Source: Candidatus Gastranaerophilales bacterium (GTDB lineage: Bacteria > Cyanobacteriota > Vampirovibrionia > Gastranaerophilales > Gastranaerophilaceae). Taken from it: a DNA stretch of 64,000 nt. The stretch lies in assembly GCA_947626225.1 (NCBI GenBank), contig CANQRH010000005.1:62001-126000 (forward strand). Direction: 5' to 3'. Every line of letters begins with the position of its first letter. Position 1 is the stretch's first letter. This document shows, in pieces, positions 52,529 through 54,247 of this stretch. The notes below the pieces were generated by a model. The model searched no databases. It worked only from the letters and a program-made list of their open reading frames with translations, and was not told the DNA's origin. Made by a program: the position numbers and the translations under genes.

Positions 52529-52834
52529 ATGTGTGAGGATAAGGAACTTAAAAAAGTCGGGCTGGAGCTTATGTTTATGACACCCGAAAAAGGCTCCGGC
52601 AACGAGTGGATTACGGCGGTAGAACTTGCCAAAATGGTTGAACTTCCGCTTGAAACCGTCAAAAGAAAATTGGTTATTCTCCGCGATAAAGAAATCGTAA
52701 GAGTTAAAGGTATTAAACCTAAATACTGGAAGTTTGATGATTATTCTTTTCAGAGAATGGATGAAGATGATGAAGTCTACAAACTTCTGTGCAGCTTTGA
52801 TGATGTTGATTTTGACAGATTTTTTAACTATTGA
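52529..52834 (+). CDS. Small winged-helix-like protein (101 aa)
   Basis: 101 aa. Residues about 25-70 look like a winged helix (EWITAVELAKMVELPLETVKRKLVILRDKEIVRVKG), followed by an acidic aromatic tail. TAGTAT lies 6 nt before the ATG, no Shine-Dalgarno. Next to hydF; may regulate neighbouring genes. Not assigned to a named family. Confidence 0.65.
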   Translation: MCEDKELKKVGLELMFMTPEKGSGNEWITAVELAKMVELPLETVKRKLVILRDKEIVRVKGIKPKYWKFDDYSFQRMDEDDEVYKLLCSFDDVDFDRFFNY

Positions 52835-52858
52835 TTATCTTTATGTTATGATTAACTT

Positions 52859-52969
52859 ATGGAACTCTTAAGGAAATCAAAATCTGAACTCGTCGGGGGG
52901 GGGGCAAAAGCAATGATTTATTCTGTATCAGGGACGGTTGGAAATATAATCGGCGAAATACTGCTGTAA
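52859..52969 (+). other. Short ORF containing the G10 tract (N-terminal part of a phase-switched gene?)
   Basis: 36 codons from ATG 52859, running through the G10 tract and stopping at 52967-52969. With 8 or 11 G instead of 10 the same start would read on (via KSNDLFCIRDGWKYN and KHYKIINFFGLKFKL) directly into the DUF1796-like frame below. No clear Shine-Dalgarno. Confidence 0.45.
52895..52904. repeat. Homopolymer tract G10
   Basis: Ten consecutive G in a region of about two-thirds A+T. No other such tract occurs in the window. Length changes here would switch the reading frame of the gene that follows. Confidence 0.95.
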
Positions 52970-53010
52970 AGCATTACAAGATTATAAATTTCTTCGGGCT
53001 AAAATTTAAG

Positions 53011-53748
53011 TTGAATACGGCAAGATACCATTACAAATGTATCTTCTGCGATTTGCTGGTTCTGTATCGAAATTATAAAGATAAAAAAACGGTTTCGGAT
53101 TGTAAAAGTTATAAAATTATTCCGCTCGGACAATATTGTTTCCCGCGCGTAATAACTTCTTTCAGTAAATTAAAGCCCTTGAAAAAAGACGGAGAAAAAA
53201 CATACCCGTTTGATTTGGCTTTTTTCAATGAGATGGATGCTGTGACGGAACTAATTAACACAAAATTTGAAAAATTTTATGACGATATGGAATATGATTA
53301 TGAACATAAATATTGGATTAATAAAAAATGGAATGCCGTTTTTAACCATGAAGCCGATTTTACATTGAAACAGTTTAAAGAGAGATATAACGCCAGAATA
53401 AAGAATTTATACGAGGATTTTAATGATAAATCTTCATATAAATTCTTCGTAATAGCAACTTTTTCCAAACTTTCAGCTCTTGTTCTTGATGATTTGGTCA
53501 AAACTCTTTATAAGTATAATCCGGACGGAAACTTTATATTAATAATTATTTCTCAGAATGTAAAACAAATAAAATATTTTAATGAAAAAATATATGTTAT
53601 AAATCAAACCGAAAAATTTGTAAATTTATCGGACTGGATTCAGGAATTAAGAGAGCTGTCAACAAAACAATCAAGAAAGATTTATAATAAAGTAACAAAA
53701 GAATTGAAAAAAATTATTCTGACAAAATTTCAACATAATAATTTTTAA
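53011..53748 (+). CDS. DUF1796-like papain-fold protein, 5' end out of frame
   Basis: 245 aa if read from TTG 53011. The frame is open back to 52888, but it contains no ATG/GTG there. KIIPLGQYCFPRVIT and KTYPFDLAF match the S-LG-x-C ... PFD signature of DUF1796 (putative papain-like cysteine peptidases), usually found in surface-polysaccharide clusters; Cys in GQYC and His in VFNHE are likely catalytic. The residues before 53011 look coding, so the true start is probably upstream across the G10 tract at 52859. Either phase-variable (now OFF), a pseudogene, or a homopolymer length error. Confidence 0.65.
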   Translation: MNTARYHYKCIFCDLLVLYRNYKDKKTVSDCKSYKIIPLGQYCFPRVITSFSKLKPLKKDGEKTYPFDLAFFNEMDAVTELINTKFEKFYDDMEYDYEHKYWINKKWNAVFNHEADFTLKQFKERYNARIKNLYEDFNDKSSYKFFVIATFSKLSALVLDDLVKTLYKYNPDGNFILIIISQNVKQIKYFNEKIYVINQTEKFVNLSDWIQELRELSTKQSRKIYNKVTKELKKIILTKFQHNNF

Positions 53749-53800: not shown

Positions 53801-54247
53801 ATGGAAAATAATTTTTATTTGCTTATAATATCCATGATGTTAAGTGTACCTCCCATAAGTCATATAAGTTTTACTTCCCGTCCGATGCAGGATGCAGTCT
53901 GTGTTTCGCGCATGCTTCTCAGAAACGGTTACAATAAAAGCGAACAGGATTACTATAAGTTTATAAACTCCGAGATAAAAGAATTACGTCAGGCAAGGCT
54001 TAATAATGATCAGGACAATACGGAAGAAGAAGTGGGAGATATCTTATTTGATACAATCATGCTTGCGGATTATTACGGGGTTGATCCTGCCGCCGCTCTT
54101 GAACGAACCAATAAAAAAATCTCAAACAGGGTTGCTCTTGCAAAACAACTCGCAGGCAAACCGCTTACCGAAATAAGTTTTCCTCAACGTATTACATATT
54201 GGAATATTGCAAAAGAACAGCTGAGAGCACTCAATTTGGAAGCCTAG
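53801..54247 (+). CDS. MazG-like nucleotide pyrophosphohydrolase-fold protein
   Basis: 148 aa. After a short hydrophobic start and an ISFTSRP motif, the MazG-type all-helical core is visible: SEIKELRQARLNN, then EEEVGDILFDTIMLADYYG (metal-binding ExxE and EExxD, about residues 58-95), and LERTNKKISNRVA. The family hydrolyses non-canonical NTPs. The N-terminal 30 residues are unusual. Confidence 0.75.
   Translation: MENNFYLLIISMMLSVPPISHISFTSRPMQDAVCVSRMLLRNGYNKSEQDYYKFINSEIKELRQARLNNDQDNTEEEVGDILFDTIMLADYYGVDPAAALERTNKKISNRVALAKQLAGKPLTEISFPQRITYWNIAKEQLRALNLEA

Follow-up and report, generated by a model that had tools for sequence, protein, structure and literature searches.

We propose that the run of ten G residues near the start of a DUF1796-like gene in a Candidatus Gastranaerophilales bacterium is a slipped-strand contingency site, one of about 27 in its genome and part of a poly-G phasome that would be present in the majority of the family's species, with prepilin-like genes and surface or glycan genes as its targets. 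We put the probability of this reading, which is drawn from sequence, at roughly 85%. According to the model, replication slippage would gain or lose single G's in the tract; at 10 G the ribosome would make a 36-residue dead peptide (OFF), and at 11 or 8 G it would read through into the DUF1796-like protein (ON). Tract length would vary within the population, switching would change the cell surface, and the locus would be OFF as assembled, inside a clade-wide and largely default-OFF phasome.

A G10 tract between a start codon and a DUF1796-like frame

The window, that is, the whole stretch of DNA analysed, comprises 64,000 nt of the forward strand of contig CANQRH010000005.1 (assembly GCA_947626225.1, positions 62,001 to 126,000), and the features of the locus are collected in Table 1. 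The tract, bordered by CTCGTC on its 5′ side and CAAAAGC on its 3′ side, begins 36 nt after the ATG at 52,859. This ATG joins the frame of the ORF at 53,011–53,748 (TTG start, 245 aa), which stays open upstream back to the tract, only if the tract has one base more (G11) or two bases fewer (G8). The tract, the ATG and the frame end at 52,969 had been placed exactly to the base in an earlier note on this DNA, and its statement that 8 or 11 G would join the ATG to the downstream ORF is borne out by our frame reading.

Table 1. Features of the switchable locus, in window coordinates
Feature	Position	Strand	Remark
HTH-like gene, upstream of the switchable gene	52529..52834	+	adjoins hydF across much of the genus; edge of a variable insertion
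Promoter-like site TTAACT-17-TATGAT, TG before the second hexamer	52824..52852	+	consensus match only
Probable ATG start of the switchable gene	52859..52861	+	first ATG in the frame entering the G10 tract
G10 tract, proposed slippage site	52895..52904	+	G10 = OFF, G11 or G8 = ON (predicted)
TAA ending the ATG frame at G10	52967..52969	+	sequence reading
Open frame for the DUF1796-like protein, downstream of the G10 tract	52905..53748	+	listed ORF from TTG 53011
MazG-like gene, after the switchable gene	53801..54247	+	missing together with the switchable gene at the site in G002

The start codon is the softest part of the switch model, since no Shine-Dalgarno (SD) sequence was found before the ATG and the TG-extended −10-like hexamer ends only 7 nt before it; the start may be leaderless or coupled. 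Promoter-like consensus matches in the region numbered 11, against 8.1 expected. A hairpin at the tract was considered and rejected, as folding was no better than that of shuffled sequences.

In a profile search, the predicted product matched DUF1796 (PF08795) with 23.3 bits over model positions 2–118 of 166, so that its earlier assignment as DUF1796-like holds, barely above the Pfam cut-off of 23.0 bits. Of 97 genomes, counting the source genome, 32 have a DUF1796 match, and the nearest homologue of the window gene has 37% identity; no named close relative of the gene was found in the genome contig collection. The single-sequence structure model (pLDDT 40) was unusable, and no structural relative was found among solved structures, the nearest match being at chance level. 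In homologues elsewhere, 45–60 residues precede the DUF1796 domain, and the stretch upstream of 53,011, KHYKIINFFGLKFKLN, is matched in one homologue (L059), which has its ‘KIFKFFGIKI’ segment in common with the window frame. Therefore, the segment between the tract and 53,011 is probably coding, as its residues had earlier been said to look.

The DUF1796 homologues read from other genomes have no G tract near the gene start, hence the association of G10 with DUF1796 is private to the window copy. Homologues that start at 53,011 and lack the tract had been named beforehand as evidence against switching; the tract is indeed lacking, but the homologues do not start there, and turnover of tracts between homologues is normal in contingency loci. 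DUF1796 genes may usually lie in surface polysaccharide clusters, as the earlier note has it; the window gene has an HTH gene on one side and a MazG-like gene on the other. In the closest of the relatives compared at the locus (G002), the HTH gene is followed directly by a convergent SLT gene, with neither the DUF1796-like nor the MazG-like gene, from which the switchable gene looks like an accessory insertion. Among the relatives compared, the source genome alone has the switchable gene at this site, and genome and contig searches, including the 97-genome set, found no second copy of the locus, though records very close to the source genome may have lain outside their reach.

This private occurrence, the tractless homologues and the missing SD sequence would all suit a decaying gene, namely a pseudogene with a one-off frameshift in which any translation begins at 53,011. 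We give this explanation very little credence, because the frame remains open for about 840 nt after the tract with a domain match, and because the frame is broken precisely at a G10 run of the kind enriched at 5′ ends genome-wide.

Long G and C runs in the source genome

The source genome (G000, 1.59 Mb) contains 27 G or C runs of 9–15, against 0.04 expected by extrapolation for runs of at least 9, and a whole-genome pattern search found none of exactly 8, all 27 long runs being of 9–15 and their lengths forming a second peak at 9–11. Pattern searches and fetched stretches were the basis of the genome-wide counts. In a 464-kb sample, consisting of the window and 20 stretches of 20 kb from the same genome, G and C runs together numbered 637 at length 4, 74 at length 5, 5 at length 6, none at lengths 7–9 and one at length 10, the window tract being the sole run longer than 6. 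Since the 20-kb stretches were picked before counting but between known tracts, the class of long runs is taken from the whole-genome search.

The runs are concentrated at gene starts. Under a strict rule (SD and ATG within 60 nt, and 200 nt of open frame behind the tract), 13 of the 27 tracts lie at most 60 nt after an SD sequence and ATG with a long frame behind them, compared with 5 of 76 runs of G5–7 and 255 of 3000 random sites (8.5%). When both strands were read at each tract, most gene-linked tracts were found soon after the start codon and few in mid-gene. About ten of the tract genes are type IV prepilin-like, with FTLAE or FSLAE motifs; the others include those for a GT9 glycosyltransferase, a HAD-like hydrolase, radical SAM enzymes, a hexapeptide transferase and an SLT protein. 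Eight prepilin genes have a resolvable state, with three ON, three one base short and two two bases short, and this mixture is the pattern expected of drifting tracts.

Errors of homopolymer length in assembly or sequencing, with the genes truly in frame behind stable tracts, deserve mention, as the data are MAGs and homopolymers are error-prone. Such errors are very unlikely to be the explanation: the tracts occur far beyond chance and at 5′ ends, one assembly holds different lengths with ON and OFF copies side by side, and many related MAGs carry contig names in the style of SPAdes or MEGAHIT. The naming of many motif-bearing MAGs like short-read assemblies also makes long-read homopolymer error unlikely as a general cause.

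Several individual loci merit description. Two tract-controlled genes (L034:2977-4638 and L040:2841-4910, on contigs C2 and C4) combine a prepilin N-terminus with YadA-head repeats and a Peptidase_S74 chaperone domain, and could possibly encode pilus-tip adhesins. A C11 tract at C2:147251-147261 (L035:3252) lies upstream of, and abuts, a promoter-like site, TTGCAT-17-TATAAT, of a prepilin gene that has G10 in its leader, so that one gene may possibly be switched at both the transcriptional and the translational level. At L033 (C1:298292 to the contig end), a G15 run is followed by high-GC sequence unlike the remaining genome, and this contig end looks like a chimera or contaminant.

Prepilin tracts, their lengths and their strand in relatives

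Of 117 genomes of the family, 103 contain tracts; the number per genome runs from zero to over 100, and the largest count obtained was 176, in a member of the same genus as the source (G026). Most other families of the order have them in few copies, with overlapping windows counted; such runs are also present elsewhere in the phylum, in larger genomes, so that plain tract counts outside the family mean little. In three near-complete genomes of the source genus (G025, G006 and G018), a prepilin gene is associated with 47 of 51, 36 of 39 and 20 of 21 of the tracts fetched, respectively. The tract sits in the leader ahead of the processing site, and cleavage would therefore leave the mature pilin without it.

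Copies differing by a single base were found among close sequences: L170 has G11 and L174 G10, with 94.4% flank identity and no flank gap, and L167 and L172 have lengths of 10 and 11 within closely similar flanks. Tract length differs in 6 of 16 pairs at 90–95% flank identity and in none of the five pairs above 95%. Taken with the length peak at 9–11, the 5′ position, the mixed frames and the surface-type genes, these one-base differences uphold the slipped-strand reading of the earlier note for the genome and the clade, and we infer the same process at the window locus itself. Three features expected of a contingency locus were found: a homopolymer above chance, a position at which one unit gained or lost would change the frame, and recurrence of such tracts in surface-type genes of the genome.

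The distribution of states is uneven. Among 117 resolvable prepilin genes of five genomes (G025, G006, G018, G000 and G004), 98 are one base short, 11 in frame and 8 two bases short, and in G025, G006 and G018 exactly one base is wanting in 90 of 102 (41, 33 and 16, respectively); the usual length in these three genomes is G10, and a majority of their G11 copies read in frame. This near-uniform G10 is unpredicted by plain drift and counts against the simple contingency reading. It could be used by productive frameshifting, in which the ribosome or RNA polymerase slips by a fixed −1 on G10 or C10 and makes the full protein from a G10 gene, the ‘OFF’ state being a fixed low-expression design; in the other frame, a stop codon often lies just past the tract, which also suits this explanation. 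We nevertheless hold it to be improbable, because tracts of 9, 11 and 12 exist as well, the reading frame is intact in most G11 copies, the states in the source genome are mixed, and the G strand tracks the replichore rather than the gene, which a mechanism at the RNA level leaves unexplained.

That the tract is a separable addition to prepilins follows from G021, a 1.8-Mb genome of the same genus whose very large prepilin family does without it: there are 128 N_methyl matches and almost no G tracts, and in a sample of 20 fetched, the prepilins that could be resolved lack the tract and are nearly all of the ordinary short-leader type. A block, TGYTATAATAGTGATATG, is conserved between the tract and the prepilin motif at many G025 loci (L112, L114, L140 and others), and might provide an internal promoter along with a second start, bypassing the tract. 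Dispersed sequences, for example ‘VSGQAARLG’ and ‘HSEGACPKESS’, are inserted in the leaders of L162, L176, L181 and others, a sign of the free variation of prepilin leaders.

The tracts of the genus are also oriented. Among the listed tracts, the strand switches along the contigs 4 times in 47 neighbours in G025 and 2 times in 61 in G006, and GC skew is positive on the G strand at 43 of 51 and 38 of 39 tracts, respectively, which holds too for tracts that are C on the coding strand (7 genes in each genome). A flank, yTTC-G10-CA-N5-8-AGCTT, is common to both gene orientations. Both polarity and flank are features of the genus and are weak in the source genome. When 84,980 species genomes were scanned for the flank motif, the matches listed were almost only Gastranaerophilales MAGs, the remaining ones being some other bacteria, one Ruegeria, and a bin named ‘Fusobacterium sp. 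CAG:439’ with contigs that match G004, a member of the genus.

A bolder interpretation, which we consider unlikely, is that the tract is a replication-oriented cis-element on the leading-type strand that keeps a large set of prepilin genes at G10, a single base short of the reading frame; each cell would then express only a small random subset, with a dedicated replication-linked factor perhaps setting the length. We do not make such an element our main claim for three reasons: the shared flank and polarity may come partly from paralogy, with the C-reading genes forming one old family; strand-biased mutation could account for the polarity without special machinery; and two genomes of another genus (G138 and G175) have mixed tract strands and different flanks.

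Three other origins or roles were rejected. A polar segregation or Chi-like motif does not fit the too few copies, nearly all at 5′ ends of prepilin genes; templating of the tract by a retron or DGR does not fit the PF00078 searches, with no match in G000, G025 or G006 and one in G018; and a viral origin of the motif does not fit its single viral contig, L317 (IMGVR_UViG_2523533517_000007), in which it neighbours a prepilin gene of host type on the margin of a prophage-like stretch. On this contig, the edge with the C10-type tract and the prepilin gene adjoins phage structural genes.

Relation to known systems and biological meaning

Like canonical type IV prepilins (PF07963, N_methyl), the tract genes have the FTLAEVLITLGIIG motif and the cleavage context; unlike them, they have a long leader extension that holds the G tract, the G021 leader being short and tractless. 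In Neisseria, pilus-associated genes such as pilC are phase-variable through poly-G near the signal peptide. The Gastranaerophilales genes resemble pilC in having a homopolymer in the cleaved leader of a pilus gene, where a change in length need not alter the mature protein, but differ in number, with dozens of separate prepilin genes per genome instead of one or two genes. The poly-G contingency loci of Campylobacter, whose lengths peak at 9 (53%) and 10 (26%) in the PhasomeIt survey and of which 5% read C on the coding strand (PMC6321876), are similar in having coding-sequence G tracts of about 9–11, a frame switched between ON and OFF, and about 20 loci per genome (PMC6321876). However, Campylobacter belongs to an unrelated phylum, and in the Gastranaerophilales genus length 10 dominates, 14–35% of gene-linked tracts read C, and a genome may hold up to 176 tracts, with prepilin leaders as the main site.

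No paper on phase variation in Gastranaerophilales was found, and titles on Melainabacteria do not point there, in a search whose scope left out preprints and most subscription journals; this agrees with the earlier remark that no such switching is described in the lineage. If true, the phasome proposed here would be the first homopolymer phase variation described in the gut lineage of the Cyanobacteriota, as far as the searched literature shows, and probably among the largest phase-variable pilin sets known. The strand-locked, flank-conserved tracts would offer a natural test of the effect of fork direction on homopolymer slippage. Finally, a default-OFF repertoire of 20–50 or more prepilins in a commensal suggests a stochastic display of pili, as a defence against phage or immunity or for adhesion.
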